From Chlorella sorokiniana (taxonomy: Eukaryota > Chlorophyta > Trebouxiophyceae > Chlorellales > Chlorellaceae), in NCBI GenBank assembly GCA_025917655.1, contig CP084611.1:3410001-3474000 (forward strand): a stretch of DNA of 64,000 nucleotides, read 5' to 3'. The number at the start of each line of letters is the position of its first letter. The first letter of the stretch is position 1. The notes below the pieces were generated by a model, which saw nothing but the letters and a program-made list of their open reading frames with translations, did no database searches and had not been told where the DNA came from. The position numbers and the translations under genes were made by a program. Below are positions 6,895 through 19,451 of the stretch, one piece after another.

Positions 6895-7884
6895 TCACGG
6901 CAGGAGCAGCACCGGACAAGGTACAAACTCTGCCAGCAGGTTTGCATCCACATGCTTCTCGTGGACAGCTGCAACAGGGAGGGGCCGCACAGAGGCATGG
7001 CATGTTGGCCACGTCTGGCAACCGCACTGCACAGCCACCAGCAGGTGAGATGGTCTGCCGCTCCAGGCTGCTCACCTGCTGTGCTGAGCACCACCAGATC
7101 GGCATCCAAGTTGTCGGCCACCTCGCCAACCGCTACCGACCCCTTGCTCACGGACGCCGCCTCCACCTCCTCCTCTACAAAGCTGACTTCCAGTCCGCGG
7201 CTCACCAGCTCGCCCTGCACCAGCTGCAGCCGCTGGTTGCTGACCTTCTGTCCTTGCTCATCGACAAACATGACGGTCCTGCGGGAGGCGGGGGTGGAGG
7301 ATGCAGCCAAAAGTGAAGTGCCTCTGACTGCCGCGGCAGGATGGGCTTTGAGCTTGGTGTGAGCATACACAAATGGAAGTGAAGCTGACAGCCATACAAA
7401 CAAAGTATCAAACGGCTCACAGCTTGCTGGAGTTTTGGGTTGCTAGCGCAGCAGCGGTGCCAAGCGCCGTGCGGGAGGCAGACGACAAGACGGGATTGGA
7501 GTCCAAGATGGCCAGAAGGATGTGGTCATACTTGAGCCCCTCCAACTACAGCACACCAGGGAACGTGTGCGGCACTGCCGCATGAACTGCCCTACAACCT
7601 GCACAAGCTTCCGACACGCTGCGCCTAGACCCTTCTCCCCTGGCGGCAAACGCAACCCTCACCTGAGCTCCATTGTTGCTAGCTTCAGGTGTCGCTGATG
7701 CACGAACTGGCCGCCTATATACAATGGCTGCGCAGAGAGCCGGAGAAAAGTGTTGGTCGGCGATCAGCGCTGCCCCCGTTAAACCGAAAGACTGGTCAAG
7801 CATACCTGAGCGGCGGCCATGCCGTGCTGCTGAGGGTAGCAAGGCTGCTGCTGGGCACCGTGGTCTCGAGAGGCGCAGGTTCAT
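6895..7884 (-). CDS. Universal stress protein-like (adenine nucleotide alpha-hydrolase fold) protein
   Basis: Five exons join without any frame break: 7806-7884, 7663-7682, 7421-7545, 7076-7278 and 6895-6968, totalling 501 nt and 166 residues. All junctions are GT-AG with compatible phases. The first exon gives an Arg/Ala/Ser-rich leader (MNLRLSRPRCPAAALL..) resembling a plastid or mitochondrial transit peptide. The domain then runs through DHILLAILDSNP, LTVMFVDEQG, a helix of about 50 residues, DADLVVLSTA and LAEFVPCPVLLLP. These are the alternating strands expected of a USP fold, with a C-terminal PCPVLLLP strand. Exon 2 is only 20 nt. The ligand and role are unknown. Confidence 0.72.
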
Positions 7885-8596
7885 TGCTCCGCAGTGTCTC
7901 CGACACGCAGCTGGACGTCGGAGAAGATGGGGAGTAAGATCTGCTTCGTATTTTCTACATTATCACCCAGGTTGCTTTCATGAGAAGGTTGCCTTAATGC
8001 CAGCAAGGCATGACTCGCCGCCACCACGCCGCAAGTCCTCCCCCACAACTGCATTCCAAGCAATGTTTGGTTACACCAGCTTATACATCTACTTCATGAA
8101 GTCTGCATCGAGAAGAATTGGGGGCTCAGCAACATCCGATCACCGGCTCTGCATACGCTCGTGCACACACAGCTGTACGGCGGTTTGAGTTTTTCTTGTG
8201 GGGTGGAGGGGCATTCGACTGTGCGGGGGTGGTTCTGGGTCCGCCTTGAGTAGCAGACAACTCAAAAAGCACGTGTTTGAGCGAGGGAGAGGTGGGCAAG
8301 GGTGGCCTGACCGAGGCAACACCAGGAGGTGCACTGCTAGAATTGGTGCAGCGCAGAATAGCACGCAGCAAGTCCACATGCCATGCATGCCCCAACAGAC
8401 CGAAAAGACATAACGGATCTTGGAAATGAGGTTTGAACTGGTTTATTCCTGCGGAATCCAGGGTGACAGTTCTCCAGTGCTGCCTGCGCTGTGCATGCTG
8501 CTGTGGTGCTGACATGGCAGCCATCTACCTGAGCAACGAGCAAACAACGAGCAGAGTGGGAGAGTGAGAAGTTAATCAACGAACAGGGGAAAGGCC
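7885..8596. other. Intergenic, no gene seen
   Basis: A 712-bp stretch between the start of the USP-like gene and the stop of the GT2-GH9 gene. GC is lower than in the genes. No ORF with family resemblance, RNA gene or repeat was recognised. Confidence 0.4.
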
Positions 8597-11500
8597 TCAA
8601 ACGGAGAGGTAGGAGCCGCAGATTGCGCTGGAGCGGTAGATGCCGTAGTCCTGCAGGCAGACCTCCCACAGGCCCGGGTCCAGCTGTGGGCAGGGGGCGT
8701 CAACAGTGGCTCAGGGACAGGGAGCCGAGGCGTCGAGCACGCGGCTGTCAGGGTTGGGCAGGCAGCGCGCGGCCCTGTCCCTGCATGCGCGCGTAGCACC
8801 CGCATCCGCTTGCCTGCACCACGCCGGCCAGCGCCGCCGCCAGGCCCGCGTTGTTCTCGATGCCCACCCTGTTGCTGTCCGCCTGGCGCACATCCTCAAA
8901 GGCGTCGCTGCGCCCGAGCCGTAGACCAGGGCGCCGCGCAGCGTGTGTGGGTCGGGGTCCGGGGACAGCAGGCCCGTCACGCGGTTGCACACCTGCGGAT
9001 GCACGGGGGAGAGGCTTGCACGCACACAGGCTGCGGCCAGGCGGCACGCAGGGCTGGACTGCAGGGGCGTGGGCCGACCAGGCCCTGGCTTCCCCAGCTC
9101 CCCTCACCTCTGGCGGTTCCGGGCAGGCGGCTGCGCGGTCCTGCGTGCGGCGCGGCGGGTTGCGTCCAAAGCCCACCATCAGGGAGCGTCCCGCGTCGCC
9201 CAGCACGTACCGCACCTGGGACAGCGCCCAGCAGCGGTACTCCCGCGCCAGCGGGCAGACTCCGCCTCCGCCAGGTCGGCGTACATGAGCGACATGGCGG
9301 CGGCGTTGGCGGTGGAGCCCAGGGATGCTGGGGGCAAGGCAAGGGGGTGGATGCAGCGTGTGGGGTGGAGCAGGTGCAGCGGAACAGGGCGACGTCCCCG
9401 TTCAAGTATGGCTGCCCGCAGCCTCGCCCTGCCTGCCACCCATACGAGGCTAGGCCATGCACTGCCAGCCCGCTCACCGCTCCAGGGATTGTAAGAGCGG
9501 CCGCGCTGCGTGTAGTTGGCCATGTTGCCGGCGCATATCCAGTTTTTGAGGAACAGCTCGCTCTGCTGGCGGAAGGTGGAGCGCCCCGTCTCCTGGGCCA
9601 GCAGCAGGTTGAGCGGCCAGAACACGTTGTCCCAGTCGTACGCATACCTGGTGCAGGCGGAGAGGCAGGGGGAGGTTGAGGACATGTTCAGGTGGACTCT
9701 TCCCGCCCTCCACCCCGGAGCAGGCCAGCACCCACTTGAGGTCTGCCAGGGCGGCCTCGTCCTCCAGGTGCTTCATGTAGAAGTCGTACACGTCGCTCAG
9801 GTAGGCGTCCTGGGGGGGGCGTGCAGGTAGGAAATGGTGGGTTCATCAGAAATCATGGGGTCGGCGATGCAGCGAGAAACCCACGCATGGACGGCATGCC
9901 GCGTTCCCTGCCTGGTGTTGCCTCTTCCAGGACCCCCCCACCGTCACCCCTTAGACCAGGGCCCACCTGCTTGGTGGCCTTGTAGAGCCAGCCCGCGGCC
10001 CAGGCCAGGTCGTCGTACAGGGTGGAGGAGTTGTAGAGCAGGGTGAGGTTGAAGTCGCCATCGCCAAACCGCCCCTTCACCGCCCGAGCAAACTCGTACA
10101 CCTGCAGAGGCGGGAGAGGGGCCAGCATTTCGCTTGCATTCTGCGGCCGTAGCGTTGCTGCTCGTGGTTGTGCACCAGGCGCCGCCGTTTGAAGTTTGCC
10201 TCGCAATTTGCACCGAGCGCAGCCCTCCCCACCTCCTGTGCCTTGGTCAGCAGCTGCGTCGCGTACTCGCTCTCGTTCTGGTTGCGGAACAGGAGGGAGG
10301 CGGAGGCCAGGGCTGCAGCCACCGACCCCCCAGGTCCGATCCCCCGTGGTGAGGTCAACAGTGAAGGCGGGGCGGGGCAGGGACTGCTCCTCGGGCCGGT
10401 ACCACAGCAGCATCTCGGTGTCAATGTCGCCCACCTGTGGGGGTGAGAGGGGGGAGGGGTGCAGGGTCGGTGTGGGTGTGACGGTGGTGGGTGGTTGTGG
10501 GCACATGGGTTCCGTAATGCTGAAGCTTCCACATCGGCTCGAAACAATGTTGCGTGCCCTTAGCTCCGCGCCAGATGGCAGTCTTGCATGCAACAGGGCT
10601 CACCCGCGTGACCAGCAGGCTGCTGTTGCCGTCTGGCAGGGGCTTGTGCACCTTCATCAGGTAATCGGTGCCCCAGCGGATGGAATCCAGGGCAGCTCCC
10701 GCCTGGCCGGCGGCAGTGAAGCCGCTGCCGAAGGACATGAGCGCCCAGACAAGCAGGGTGGTGGTGAAGGCGATGGGGCTGGTGGCCTTGATGTTGCCTG
10801 CCGGGGGAAGGGGGCATCAGCGGGCTGGTAAGGGCGCCTCAACTGCCAGGGCAGGCAGGAAGGTATGGCAGCGGCAGTTGAGAGTTCTTGAAGGCCATGG
10901 CCTTGCTGCCACAAACCGGGCTGCCCTGACACAGCACCCCACCTCCGCCCATGCCGCTGAACCAGCCGCCGCCCAGGTCCCAGGGCACGTCGGTGGCGGC
11001 CGCAGCTGCGGCGGACAGCGGATCGACTGCAGAGCTGCTGGCAAAGGGGTCGCCAAAGGGGTCGCCGCCAGTCCCAGCAAAGGGATCCGCTGCCGTGCCT
11101 GTTGCAAAGGGGTCAACGCTGCCCCCGCCGCTGGAAAACGGGTCAAGGCTCCCTGACCCGCTGGCAAAGGGGTCGCTTGCGCCGGTTGTGCTGCCGCTGG
11201 CAAACGGGTCAGCCTGGAACAGGCGCCTCCCTCGGAAGGGGTCGCTCCCAAACATGCCGCCAAAGGAGTCGAACCCAAACTCCTGTACGTAGGGTGGGTG
11301 AAGTGAGCCAACCAGCTCTCAGGCCTGGAAGGTTCCGCAGCAGCAAGCCCCTGCACCAACCAACCCCTCAGACCCCTCCTCACCGATCCAAAGCCCGCAT
11401 CCAGGGTGCCGTTGGGCATGGCGGCTGCCAGGCTGGCGGTGGTGTTGTAGTCCGCCACAAACGCGTCGCCCCGCCAGGTGGCCCCGCTGCCCAGGGGCAG

Positions 11501-14500
11501 GTAGCCCTCGCGCTGGGTGTTTAGGAAGAAGAGGCTGTCGCCCAGGGCCTGCGGCGGAGTGGAGGGCGGCTGCAACTTCAACAGACGGATGAACCAGATG
11601 CCTGACAGGCCGAGGCTGACTGGCAGCACTGAAAACCACTCCATCCCAGCCCACCCGTCGCAGCCCGCCCTGCCGCACCTGCTGGTAGTCGTAGGAGCGG
11701 GGGTAGAGCAGCCAGACGAGCACCACGCCCAGCACCAGCACCGCCGTGGACAGCAGCATGGCCGCCTTGCAGATGGCGTTGAACACGAGGGGCTTGCGGT
11801 ACAGGGTGTACTGCAGCAGCAGGTACTGCGGGATGATGTTGTACACCTGCACGCATGGGGGTGGGACAGAAACCCGAGTTTCCTCATGCCTGAGGGCTTG
11901 GAGGAGTGGAACAAAGACACGAGCAGCGGCTCTGAGGAACTCCCTTCAACCAGGCCACAGGCAGGGAAGGCACCAGCGCCCCCCCCACCACCACACCATG
12001 AAGATGAGGGAGATGGCCAGCGGGGTGTCCAGGGGCCCCTTGAAGAAGTGGGCGAGGCCAAAGCCCAGGCAGACCATGGAAGCCACGAAGAAGCAGGCAG
12101 ACACCCACACATCCCTGCGCGGTTGGGTGGGGGAGGGGCGAGGCTGAGGGCCGCTGGGCTGGCGCGGAACGTGGCAGCTGCGGAGGGCAGGCGCGCGCCT
12201 GAGCAGCCCCCCGTCGGCCCACCTGAGCGGCAGGTCTGCGATGCGCTGCAGGCCCTTGGCCGTGACCTTGAAGGTGATGCGCCCCGCGATCCAGCGGCCC
12301 AGCGTGGCGCGGTAGAGGGCCTTCAGGAAGGCAAACCACAGGATGGAGTTGGCCACCTGGGAGTGAGGGTATGGGTGGGTGGGAAGGTCAGGCAGCGGGA
12401 TGGCATGCCACACGTGCGCTGCTGCCATCGGGTGCGTGCCGCCCCTCCCTGGACTGGCCCCACGGCTTCTCAGCCTCCCCTCCCCCTTCCTCCCCCACCC
12501 ACCGAGGAGAACCACATGGATTTGAGGTGGGCCAGCGTACGGGTGTAGTACATCACCTGCACCACGGGCGGGGGCGTTGACGACACACAGCGGCCCACAG
12601 GCAGAGCCATCGCGCACATGCAGGCAGGGTGGGCAGGCATGCTGGGAGTGTGCGCACCAGCAGGGTGGCCGCGTAGTAGACCGTGATGGAGATGGCGGCC
12701 CACGAGTTGATGACGATGGGGAAGGAGCCCAGCCAGACCTGGGGAGGGGGGCAGGGGGCGAGGACGACGGAGTGGGGCTGTGAGGCCCCACCAGCAAAGC
12801 AAAGAGGCGCTTGTTTGGGTGGCGCGCCGCCGCCTGGCCGGCCCTCACCGTGACCATGGGCACCAGCATGAGCAGGGGGTGGAGGTGAAGGCGGAGAGGT
12901 AGGAGAGGATGACGCTGCCGTACATCCAGCGCATCAGCGGGCTCAGGCCCCTGGCAAACACGGGGTTGTGGCGCGAGAAGAAGACCTGCGCGGCAGCAGG
13001 GAGCGGTGGGCAGCTTGCCGACGCCTTTGTGCTGTCCTCGGCGCGCGCAACGACCCCTTTTGGCTGCTCCGTCTTACAAGCAGGCGCCCCCTTGCAGCCT
13101 CACAGCGACAATCACCGCACACCCAGCCACACCCACCTGGAAGTGCCCCTTGGACCAGCGGGAGCGCTGCTGGAAGCAGTTGCGGACCTCCTCGGGTGCC
13201 TCGCCCACTGCCAGGTACTCGCTCACGTAGCGGCACTGCCACCCCAGCCGCTTCAGCTCGATGCCCAGCGCAAAGTCCTCGGTCAGGGTCCACTCGGGGA
13301 ACCAGCCCGCCTGCGGGGGCAGCCGGCCGATCACGGGTGGCACACTGCGGACCCACACCTCAACGCGCGGGCCGGCGGCCCTTCCCTTGGTAGGGTTGCT
13401 TGCAAGTACGCAAGTACGCGCCCCCCCCAGTGGGTGGAGGGTAATCTGTGTGTGTGTGGTGGGTGGGGGCCCACCTGCTGGAAGGCGCGTGCGCGCAGCA
13501 GGAAGTTGGTGCCTGTGCAGGAGATGAGGCCCAGTGCGTCGTAGCCGGGCTGCGTGTAGTCCCAGAAGTGGACATTGGCGTGGTTGAAGATGTCGCCGGC
13601 GGGGTTCAGGTTGTAGAAGGTCTGCGGAGCGAAAGGAGGCGGTTGGTGTGGGTGGGTGGGTGGGTGGGTTGGGGGGGGATGGGCAAGCAGGGAGCCTGAT
13701 GAGGAGCGAGGGAAGTCTAGTCGGGCACCTGCGGCGACAGCACCATGCCCACGTCCTGGCCGCCGTCCAGCAGAGGCACGGTCTTGAGGAAGAAGTCGGG
13801 GTTGGGCACCTGGAAGGGGGCGCAGTGGGGAGGGCGCGGGGGCAGCTGGCTGGCCTGCCGAGCGGCGTGACCCCAAAGTCATGCGAGCCACGGACGGGTG
13901 AACCACCCCCACCACAACCCGCCCCCTCACCTGATCGGCGTCAAACACGCAGAGCACCTCGGTGAGAGGGATGGCCCGCCCCTCGGGGTAGACCCGGCGT
14001 GCGGCGGAGTTGATGTTGGCGCTCTTGCCGTTCATCTCCCCCTTGGCGCGCTTGCGTCCGCTGCGGGGAGGGAGGTGCCGTGGTGTGGGAGCAGCCCCAA
14101 ATGACCAGCAAGCCTCCCACCGACGATGTGTTCAGAGCACCCACACATGCAATCTCCTCCTGAGTCAGTGAAGGAAGTGCCCCCAGCCAGAGCCCAACCT
14201 GACGTAGACGGCGTTGGCCAGGCCCAGCCCCCGCATGAACTTCTTCTTCTCGATGTCCCGCCCATCATCCAGCAGGTACACTGCAGCCGGGGAAGGGGGA
14301 GCCGAGGGGCTCACAAGGAAACCGCATCAACTGTTACAGCTGGTCCGCCACCTCGGGCGAAAACTAGCGAGTTCTGTGCCTCTGCCGCAGCCTACTGGCA
14401 GCAGTCCGTAGTACCCAGGCACACCAGCACAATCTGCCCCCTGGCCTCACCCGTGCGGGAGCAGCCGGTGGGGATGGGCGCCACCAGCGCCGCCGTCACC

Positions 14501-16302
14501 GTCTTCTGCACCACCTCCAGCGGCTCCTTGTAGCAGGGCACCACCACGCGGATGTGGTAGCGCAGCGCGGTGTGCACCTGCAGGCAGCACAGGGCTTAGC
14601 AGCAGGCTCTTAGCCACGGGCCTGCGGGGACAGCAGGGCGGGAGCACGGAGGGCAGGCGGCTGGCGCGGGGGGAGCGCGTGCGCCGGCCCGTCTCCCACC
14701 TGCCCCTTCTCGTCTGGCGGCGGCACGTCGTTGTTTGTGACGCGCATGGTGAGGCAGAGGCCGTAGGGCAGCATGGCCAGGCCGCCCAGGATCTCCACAC
14801 CCAGCACGATGGCGCCGTACCTGGCGTGGTTGGCGGGGAGAAGCCAGGGAGAGGGTTGGGGTGGGGGCGGGGCTCGCCTGTCCCGCTGGGAGCACCACCC
14901 GTCTGCGCCTCAGGTTTGTAGTTCTTGTTTTTTCTTTTAACTTTCACGCTTGCACTGAGGCCACACCCAACCATTCCTTCCGCAGCCTACCGCTGTTGCT
15001 GAGCCAGGTGCGAGGCCCCTACCACACCTACCACACCCCACCTTCCCCACCCGTCGCACGCAACACACGCAACACACGAGCGTCACCCCATCCACACTCA
15101 CACCCACACCCACTAACCCACTCCCCCACCGCCACCCACCAGAGCATGGGCCCCAGGCCCAGCGTGTGCGTGGCTCGCGCCCACACGTAGAAGATGAAGG
15201 CTGCGATGAAGGCGAGGTAGGACAGCAGGCCCCACCAGTTGACAGCGCGCTGCTTGTGCAGGCGGTGCGGGATGGGAAGCGCCTCTGCAAGGGCAGGGGG
15301 CCGTCATCAGCCAGGGGAGCAACAGCACCTCGCAGGCGCCAGCTCCCCCGCTCGCCCCCCCCATAAACGCCGCTCACCCTGGCCCCCGCCTGCCTCCGCT
15401 GCCCCCGCAACCGCGGCATCGGCCGCCTCCTCCAAGTCCTCCGCCCGCCGGCTGGCGGCCCTGGCCAGCACCTGCTCCGCAAACCACGGCTTCACGTCGT
15501 CGCCTGCGGGCAGGGCAGGGGAACTGCTGTGCACAACCATGCATGGCTGGCACCTTGTGGGAATCTTCCAAACGGAGCAGCCGGCCGGTCGCCAGCCCTA
15601 GTACACAGTCAGCCCAGCCACCCACCCCGGTACTCGTCCTGCACAAACGCGGCCTTGAGCAGCGCCGTGGCTGCCGTGGTGGCGGCGGTGCTGCTGGTGG
15701 CGGCGCTGCTCAGGCTGAGCTTGTCGTCGTACGACGACTCGCTGGCGCAGTCCAGCAGGCCCACGCCCTCCAGGGCGGGAGAGATCTCGGGGTCGGCGCC
15801 CTGCCGCGGGAACAGGGAGACAGCCGGTCAGGCAGGGGACCCAAAGGGCGGGGCCGCATGGGGGGGGATTGGACGGGGGAAAGAGCGGCTTCCAGGGGCA
15901 GGAAGCTGCGCGGTCATCAACCCGCCCGCACTTCAGCATTGCCCCCTCCCACCTGCCCCTGCCGCGCCCCATCCCGCTGCTGCTGGCTGCCCCCAGAGGC
16001 CTGGGTGACGTGGCGAAGGATGTCCACCAGGGTGGCGGTGAGGCGCCGCACGTGCTGCACAGGCACCACCGCCGCAGGCTCGTCGCCGCCGCCGCCTGGC
16101 TGCAACGCCGCGGCGCGCCCAGCCTCAAGGTCGGCCATCGTAGCCACGGAGTCGCCACGCGCTGCAATGGCAGTCTCTGTTCGCCGAGTGTCGCCTGCAG
16201 CCAGAGGGGCACCTTCATCGAGCAGGAGCAGTGGCAGCAGAGGCAACAACGCACGCTTTGCCGTTGCAAGCAAGCCTTCATCCTCTTGCCCACCTGGCCG
16301 AG

Positions 16303-16334
<32 letters not shown>

Positions 16335-16624
16335 GCCACCGAGCCGGACATGGTCTCCAGGATCTCCACCAGGCTCTGGGTCATGCGGCGCAGGTGGCGG
16401 TCCCCGCCCGCGCCCCCGCCGCCGCTGCTGGGCGCCCCTATGCTGCTGGTGGAGCGGCTGTGCGAGGGGGCGTCATGCTGCGAGCCGCCGTTGTTCCCAC
16501 CAAGAGCTGGCGCGGGAGTGGCGGCAGCAAGCCCAGCCACTGGGTGCGAGGTCAGAGGGTTGGCAAACGTCTCCTCCTTGCCCGCCGCGACCGCAGGCTG
16601 CGCGGAAGTTTGCGCCGCCAGCAT
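8597..16624 (-). CDS. Cellulose-synthase-type GT2 fused to a GH9 (KORRIGAN-like) domain
   Basis: One multi-exon gene. The ATG at 16624 is preceded by an in-frame TAG, and the stop is at 8597-8599. Order: a disordered N-terminus with a polyQ tract; transmembrane segments near 15240-15170 and 14820-14740; a GT2 catalytic domain with LDDGRD (14250-14272), FDADQ (about 13940), TEDFALG (13275-13283) and QQRSRW (about 13150-13175); about five or six more membrane segments; then a GH9 domain beginning ALGDSLFFLNTQREG..WRGD (about 11550). The junction exons (11997-12114, 11846 downward, then the ALGD exon) share phase and are open, so this is one reading frame, not two genes. The synthase residues are intact; the GH9 catalytic residues are not (see findings). 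Frame breaks occur near 10335 and 8930. The likely site is plasma membrane or Golgi, with beta-glucan synthesis inferred. Confidence 0.85.
11020..11255 (-). repeat. DPF-motif repeat tract inside the GH9 domain
   Basis: Eight Asp-Pro-Phe motifs and one Asp-Pro-Leu occur in about 80 residues, mostly as DPFASGS-like units spaced 8-11 residues apart. The tract lies within an insertion between the GH9 WRGD and DLGGGW strands. It is coding, in frame and not present in ordinary GH9 proteins. Confidence 0.8.
16304..16333 (-). repeat. CTG/CAG microsatellite encoding polyglutamine
   Basis: Ten consecutive Gln codons in the N-terminal disordered segment of the GT2-GH9 protein, after SGSVA. Its length may vary between strains. 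Confidence 0.85.
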
Positions 16625-17360
16625 CTCAGCAGGCTACGCGAGCCTCCCCTGCCAGGGTCCGCTTTGCCAGGTTTGGGTGCCTGCATGAGCGGGCACATAT
16701 TGAGCCATGCCTGTTGGAGGCAGCCAGCGCTGCACGAGGCTACAAGGCTGAAGCGGCTGCCGCCCTCCCACCAACCTCCCACCCGCCGCTCATTGGGCAC
16801 CCTGCCCCACCTTTCAGCAGCCCACCGCTGGCTCTATTGCTGCGCTGCCCGAATCGGACACCTGAAAGCCGGTTCAAGGCCGATCACTGAGCAGCAAGCC
16901 TGGCATGCCTTCAGCACTGCTCGGGTGAGCCGCGCAACCCTGCACCAGCAGACCGACGATCGCGGCTAATTCGATGGCAGGCAGGCGTGAAATGACATGC
17001 AATCGAGTATGGTGGCTGCTGGCTTGCCTCGAGGCCACGAACGTGAGCAGCAACGAGGCAGCGGCAAGTACTGCCCTCCACAGCCCTAGGAAAGGGACCC
17101 ACAACCTGAAACCTGCCCAGCCGTTGCCAGAGTGTGCAGATTAAGCCCGGGTGCGCGTAGGGTTGTGCTCGGCGCCCGGGAGATGGAGGGCTGATGGAAA
17201 GGAGGAGTTGCTGGCCTTGGACAAGCCAAGCCTGGCTGGCGGAGACGCCGCCTGCCAGCTGCCGCTCCAGTGCCTGCTGCCCTCCCTCATCAAATGGTTA
17301 CAGATCTCAAAAAGTTGGCTGGAGTGGATCAATCCACATGGTACAAGCGTCTTGGTGGTG
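16625..17360. other. Intergenic, presumed promoter of the GT2-GH9 gene
   Basis: A 736-bp gap between the GT2-GH9 start and the stop of the D-ribulose kinase, both on the minus strand. No additional gene, RNA or repeat was recognised. Confidence 0.4.

Positions 17361-19451
<2,091 letters not shown>

Follow-up and report, generated by a model that had tools for sequence, protein, structure and literature searches.

It has long been puzzling that a cellulase is required for the synthesis of cellulose, namely KORRIGAN in plants and BcsZ in bacteria. In two of the closest described systems, a cellulase-family domain is attached to the synthase itself. GH9 domains joined to cellulose-synthase-like domains were reported in the green alga Coccomyxa subellipsoidea C-169 by Blanc et al. 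2012 (PMC3446292), according to whom the only algae with such CesA-like domains are C-169, C. variabilis and Emiliania huxleyi. The cellulose section of that paper infers wall cellulose in Coccomyxa from the presence of both domains and says nothing about the catalytic residues of GH9. The same paper attributes cellulase activity to the domain fused to the tunicate synthase, which is doubted in PMC7464555 and PMC10334666. Green algal CslP proteins have been placed near the tunicate, oomycete and bacterial CesAs in a preprint on the Zygnema genome (PMC9915684). Here we describe a gene in which a BcsA/CesA-type GT2 synthase is followed by a GH9 domain, found in a stretch of 64,000 nucleotides (the window) of the Chlorella sorokiniana genome. 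The window corresponds to G000:C1:3410001-3474000 of a 38.8 Mb, 15-contig assembly, and its G+C content ranges from 60 to 76% in 2-kb steps. All gene coordinates given below without a contig name are window positions on the minus strand.

The gene (16624..8597) has 28 exons that encode, in that order, an N-terminal extension, the GT2 synthase and the GH9 domain. Its reading frame begins with an ATG at 16624, nine bases ahead of which there is an in-frame TAG, and ends with a TGA at 8597. The introns are 88-319 bp long (median 130 bp) and all of them are GT-AG except for the last one, which is GC-AG. The conceptual product of 1,442 residues, with an X placed at each of the frame changes discussed below, has no other interruption by an in-frame stop. 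The domain order, strand and coordinates given in a preliminary description of this DNA were confirmed, and Pfam detects the two domains in the respective halves (GT2, PF13641, E 1.2e-19; GH9, PF00759, E 3.9e-83). That description knew of no earlier GT2-GH9 fusion; this claim of novelty fails, and the architecture is not new, because such fusions have been reported in Coccomyxa (PMC3446292). The unbroken, in-phase frame that it proposed was found at the junction, where no stop interrupts the phase 0 joins of exons 17 (12114-11997), 18 (11846-11679) and 19 (11548-11384), but four single-base frame changes are present elsewhere in the gene.

A closer look at the junction shows that the splice between exons 17 and 18 falls within a predicted membrane helix (LAISLIFM/VYNIIPQYLLLQYTL, the slash marking the splice), and that GH9 homology spans the next splice (SYDYQQ/ALGDSLFFLNTQREGYLPLGSGATWRGD matches residues 2-35 of 1ks8 with an E-value of 0.0012 for a 174-residue query). 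The onset of GH9 homology is thus in exon 18, directly past the last predicted membrane helix. Hence, exon 18 (11679..11846) belongs to both halves and is their physical join, as it starts in a predicted synthase helix, continues through an extra last helix and ends in the first GH9 residues, SYDYQQ. The two junction introns are 150 and 130 bp long compared to the median of 130 bp for the gene, which leaves little space for a gene boundary. The pentamer TGTAA, a polyadenylation signal in other chlorophytes and putatively one here, is absent from the minus strand between the two halves; within 7000-18000 of this strand it is found only at 17302, 14338, 13078 and 8075. The last of these (8071..8075) is the first past the stop codon and a candidate polyadenylation signal, with none from 13078 to 8075. 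As far as the DNA alone can tell, the fusion of GT2 and GH9 into one protein is well supported, and a single transcript across both halves can be inferred.

The catalytic domain of the synthase half is encoded by exons 7-13 (12849..14577), and this half matches PF13632, PF03552, PF00535 and PF13506 in addition to PF13641. In a phmmer search against solved structures, the Rhodobacter BcsA chains 5ej1 and 4hg6 were matched with E-values of 4.8e-26 and 6.1e-26. Chains of other cellulose synthases of the bacterial type followed with 2.9e-21, and plant-type CesA/Csl chains were matched far more weakly. The NCBIfam model of UDP-forming BcsA (TIGR03030) gave an E-value of 1.4e-41 with a score of 142.4 bits, which is below its cut-off of 699.1 bits. 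The catalytic motifs YLLDDG (residue 424), FDAD (489), LTED (578) and QRSRW (617) are all intact. FxVTxK is the gating-loop motif of BcsA/CesA synthases, and a similar sequence, RITFKVTAKG, is present here, its VTAK at residue 749 being aligned to the VTAK of BcsA. No PilZ domain was found among Pfam matches with E-values up to 1.

The GH9-like domain (exons 19-28, 8597..11548, with LSV at the C-terminus) matches PF00759 with 280.7 bits and the best GH9 structure in the PDB with an E-value of 1.9e-67. Its active site is a different matter. In GH9 enzymes, the Asp pair of DAGD and the Glu of NE are catalytic, and a His of the PHHR type belongs to the active site. Both Asp residues are gone: the GGWYDAGDHVK of 8ihw, 3wc3 and 8ihy stands opposite GGWFSGMGGGNIK, and DAGD is replaced by SGMGGG (10943..10970, GGWFSGMGGG(NIK) versus GGWYDAGD(HVK) in relatives). 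The Glu is gone as well, NEVANDYNAG being aligned with NRVGIENNAG, so that NEVA reads NRVG (8868..8873, NR versus NE in relatives), and so is the active-site His, with PHHRSSSCP opposite TQDRAAACP (9135..9152, RRTQDR versus the PHHR type in relatives). Three alignments agree on these losses, namely those with the structures 8ihw, 3wc3 and 8ihy, the spliced alignment and the protein alignment of the exon model. Much of the remaining domain is conserved. In the exon-model protein alignment, 67 of the 104 columns that are invariant in 8ihw and four catalytically intact GH9 paralogs from the same genome are retained, D31 among them. Five of the six invariant Trp residues are in place (W65, W89, W118, W212 and W272), and there is a Trp one column ahead of the position of the lost sixth, W291. 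The 37 lost columns include D45, D48, H115, H349, H350, Y398, E402, W291 and R295. Hence, the GH9 tail is most likely non-hydrolytic. We found no description of GH9 catalytic loss in a GT2-GH9 fusion in the accessible literature, a body of work that most subscription papers lie outside.

The hydropathy scan predicts hydrophobic segments at residues 309-327 and 341-361 (exons 5-6, 14700..15284) and at 656-681, 684-707, 715-733, 762-784, 795-817 and 831-852; exons 14-18 (11679..12738) encode the remaining helices, the gating-loop-like FKVTAK and the extra last helix (831-852). If segment 715-733 is an interface helix, as is found in BcsA and CesA, seven helices cross the membrane and the GH9 domain is outside. 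Lysine and arginine counts are 3, 1, 4 and 3 beside the presumed inner ends and 1, 0, 1 and 0 beside the presumed outer ends, and these residues are in excess in most presumed inner loops, with none past the last helix. N-glycosylation sequons involve none of the 22 Asn residues of the GT2 half versus 7 of the 21 Asn residues of the GH9 half (Fisher p 0.0036). The helix count and the sequons, with which the charges broadly fit, point to a GH9 domain that faces outside. The preliminary description placed a glucanase fold at the membrane and asked whether it faces outside; an outward-facing fold is supported to that extent, by inference. The one-to-one tie between synthesis and a glucanase that the description proposed is unsupported if an active enzyme was meant, since both catalytic Asp residues and the Glu have been substituted; the losses had gone without mention there.

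Taken together, these findings make it fairly probable that the gene encodes a single membrane protein, in which a GT2 synthase is followed by an extra helix and an outer, non-cutting GH9 domain that handles the emerging chain. A processive beta-glycan synthase of the BcsA/CesA type, its catalytic motifs intact, would make the glycan chain. The GH9-like domain would be located on the outer side, where bacterial BcsA has a PilZ domain on the inner side. Its cleft, with the remaining Trp residues, might receive and steer the nascent beta-1,4-glucan chain at the channel exit without cutting it, and the domain would then be a tethered, non-catalytic counterpart of KORRIGAN. Both the binding or guiding of the chain by GH9 and a glucan as the product are proposals, and cellulose is our best guess at the polymer, other beta-glycans being possible. 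A synthase with an attached and apparently non-cutting cellulase would separate binding from cutting in a way that can be tested in one polypeptide.

Several observations do not sit easily with this interpretation. The loss of W291 and R295 means that the cleft is incompletely retained, and of the 37 columns that are lost, many are not part of the active site. Exon 19 contains a DAG (LDAGFGSEFGF) with a spacing to RGD similar to that of the canonical loop, so there is a slight possibility of a misplaced loop. The loss of the Glu could have arisen through a pair of nearby one-base errors that compensate each other, which is possible but, at the observed rate, unlikely. The hydropathy scan flags three stretches within the GH9 domain, with peaks of 1.25-1.51, that we have taken for buried helices. 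As literally read, the four frame changes would speak for true decay of the gene, a slim possibility. By hidden Markov model (HMM) matches alone, HSP70 genes show one frame join among 57 matches in 10,365 nt, and the probability of four in the fused gene is then about 0.0009. Finally, hand reading was used for the frame of the fused gene, and an aligner for that of the control genes.

The alternative that survives best keeps the single protein and the dead GH9 domain and gives the latter a role unrelated to the chain, either in protein-protein contacts during synthase assembly or in folding or trafficking only. We consider it possible, if on the unlikely side. It draws on the same sequence facts, and a core that is retained without catalysis fits any scaffold role. 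The retention of five of the six invariant Trp residues slightly favors contact with a glycan and is not decisive.

Less probable is that the fused gene is a decaying pseudogene, with the frame changes and the catalytic losses both being part of the decay. In favor of this, one and the same gene has four frame changes and has lost several residues of the active site. All four are single-base events: one is in the GT2 half (exon 13, 12870..12885) and three are in the GH9 half (exon 22, 10325..10350; exon 26, 9250..9265; exon 27, 8907..8925). Hand reading, which gives these 4 in 4,339 nt, was used because the spliced aligner flagged 10356, 10330 and 8917 in the fused GH9 part, the first two flanking one event, and missed the exon 26 event owing to a wrong splice there. 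The same frame-aware aligner flagged 11 frame changes in five other GH9 genes of the genome (L012-L016), and ten of these were inspected in three frames (L016:1800 was left out). Three sites were set aside as gap or splice ambiguity (L012:3433, L014:5033 and L016:5663), and 7 were accepted within exons in 4,734 aligned nt of the four catalytically intact paralogs, a rate similar to that of the fused gene (Fisher p 0.55). In seven HSP70 loci aligned with E. coli DnaK, three further HSP70 clusters being left out, it flagged 9 in 10,737 nt, which were not base-checked. The lower HSP70 rate obtained from HMM matches alone would favor decay. However, the counting of adjacent HMM matches overlooks breaks in short exons, whereas frame-aware alignment covers whole exons and for this reason is trusted more. 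An inspection by eye for adjacent-frame joins found none in PF00133 (28 matches) or in PF00501 (23 matches, 15 of 95 candidates scored) and was not used as a rate. Since HSP70 and the intact GH9 paralogs show similar rates, the frame changes are read as assembly errors and not as decay, and the most likely explanation of all four is that they are errors of a kind common in this assembly. The pseudogene was thereby dropped as the leading view of the frame changes. Also against it are about 1,442 codons without an in-frame stop besides the frame changes, the intact GT2 motifs and a GH9 match that still has an E-value of 3.9e-83. In L012-L015 and L024-L030, single-base frame changes number about 0.8-1.5 per kb of coding DNA, HSP70 genes included. 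Small indel errors seem to be frequent in this assembly, and frame-based claims made from it need care.

It is distinctly improbable that a gene for a GT2 synthase and another, arranged head to tail with it, for a type II membrane GH9 like KORRIGAN have been merged only in the model. The last helix has a Met at its start (AMLLSTAV, residues 831-832), which could serve such a reading, and a helix followed by GH9 resembles the KORRIGAN layout. Exon 18 speaks against it, beginning in a predicted synthase helix and ending within GH9, as do the absence of a stop or TGTAA between the halves and the ordinary size of introns 17 and 18; moreover, Coccomyxa is reported to have this type of fusion too (PMC3446292). 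Least probable of all is a synthase whose GH9 domain actively trims the nascent chain through non-canonical residues or the exon 19 DAG: the good overall GH9 match would suit it, as would the DAG of exon 19 with FGF after it (exons 19-20), spaced from RGD much like the canonical loop, but in all three alignments the canonical loop is covered by DLGGGWFSGMGGGNIK, after which comes a well-matched helix, and the Glu and the His are lost too.

Exons 1-4 (15378..16624) encode a Ser/Gly/Gln-rich N-terminal extension (about residues 1-291) with no Pfam match. These exons were chosen by splice signals only, and as the extension is of low complexity and has no Pfam match, their borders are the least certain of the model. 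An H.RR.T..LV.IL....S motif occurs twice in the extension, as HLRRMTQSLVEILETMSGS and as HVRRLTATLVDILRHVTQAS (about 16340-16400 and 15995-16055), the copies being separated by a poly-Gln run. A low-complexity insert of about 80 residues with DPF/ASG repeats precedes the former Asp loop of GH9 in exon 20 (11011..11243, limits by eye). A tblastn search with this insert matched, with an E-value of 0.011, an SPF/ASSF-rich stretch near the GT2 gene on contig C11 (L018, 2533-2682, minus strand). The flanking reading frames (three entries, two of which are one downstream open reading frame) gave no Pfam match.

A PF00759 search of the same genome found at least five other GH9 loci. Four of the five, L012 and L013 (C2), L014 (C5) and L015 (C6), retain DAGD, NE and HH. 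In the fifth, L016 (C10), ESGG replaces DAGD, the Glu is retained (TEPT) and 54 of the 104 invariant columns are kept. This locus (G000:C10:973000-981900, minus strand, about 5810-1800) has the non-canonical Asp loop GGYYESGGSGLK, its Glu lies in TEPTIVYNSG, and a membrane anchor might precede its first exon, WLVPPCRYAYNEALTKALIYY. Two catalytically intact GH9 genes are convergent within 12 kb (G000:C2:4701731-4705132, plus strand, and C2:4709750-4713200, minus strand). No close second copy of the fused GT2 was found elsewhere in the genome, as the eight matches all fall on this locus. Two further PF13632 loci exist, on C11 and C6. A GH9 gene on C6 lies about 19 kb from the GT2 gene there, on the opposite strand, and none of the PF00759 matches listed is on C11. 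There was no convincing tblastn match to a GT2 near the GH9 genes at L012-L016. Beyond this genome, 12 plasmid records listed of 509 matching share 31-33% identity with the GT2 core. A search for relatives of this core with a single protein as the query, which covers close relatives only, gave 22 pattern stretches in genome contigs, none of them confirmed, and no pattern match in viral contigs. Elsewhere in the genome, all 21 Condensation domains (PF00668) among the matches listed interleave with 18 of 23 AMP-binding domains (PF00501) at a spacing of about 5-6 kb. They do so near the ends of two contigs (G000:C10:13576-41062, minus strand, and G000:C11:2051501-2079119, plus strand), in two multimodular genes resembling those of nonribosomal peptide synthetases.

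In BcsA, the C-terminal PilZ domain is on the inner side of the membrane. The fused protein shares with BcsA (5ej1, 4hg6) the GT2 motifs, the FxVTxK-like gating loop and the membrane core. It gave no PilZ match, and its C-terminus is formed instead by the extra last helix and the GH9 domain. As in the fused protein, KORRIGAN and the plant class A GH9 enzymes have a membrane helix directly ahead of an outside GH9 domain, which here would be the predicted helix 831-852 followed by SYDYQQ. KORRIGAN is linked to cellulose synthesis as a separate and catalytically active protein, whereas the GH9 domain described here is fused and lacks the catalytic residues. As in the four Coccomyxa C-169 fusions (PMC3446292), GH9 and a CesA-like GT2 would, according to our gene model, be on one protein; the new point would be the apparently dead GH9 tail. 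The tunicate CesA, as described in PMC7464555 and PMC10334666, similarly consists of a synthase followed by a cellulase-family domain without the catalytic Asp, and according to these papers a separate hydrolase paralog in tunicate genomes mostly keeps this Asp, much as most of the separate GH9 genes in the genome studied here keep their catalytic residues. It differs in being an animal protein with a GH6 domain, whereas the only Pfam match of the tail described here is PF00759, with no match to GH6. We tentatively suggest that algae and tunicates have converged independently on a cellulose synthase with a dead cellulase, GH9 in one case and GH6 in the other, at its outer end. The cellulase part would then aid synthesis by binding and steering the nascent chain and not through hydrolysis, and this would also hint at a partly non-catalytic role in synthesis for cellulases of the KORRIGAN type. 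Because the degenerate GH6 of tunicates is a parallel from a distant lineage and a different family, a shared non-catalytic function is more plausible than chance decay.

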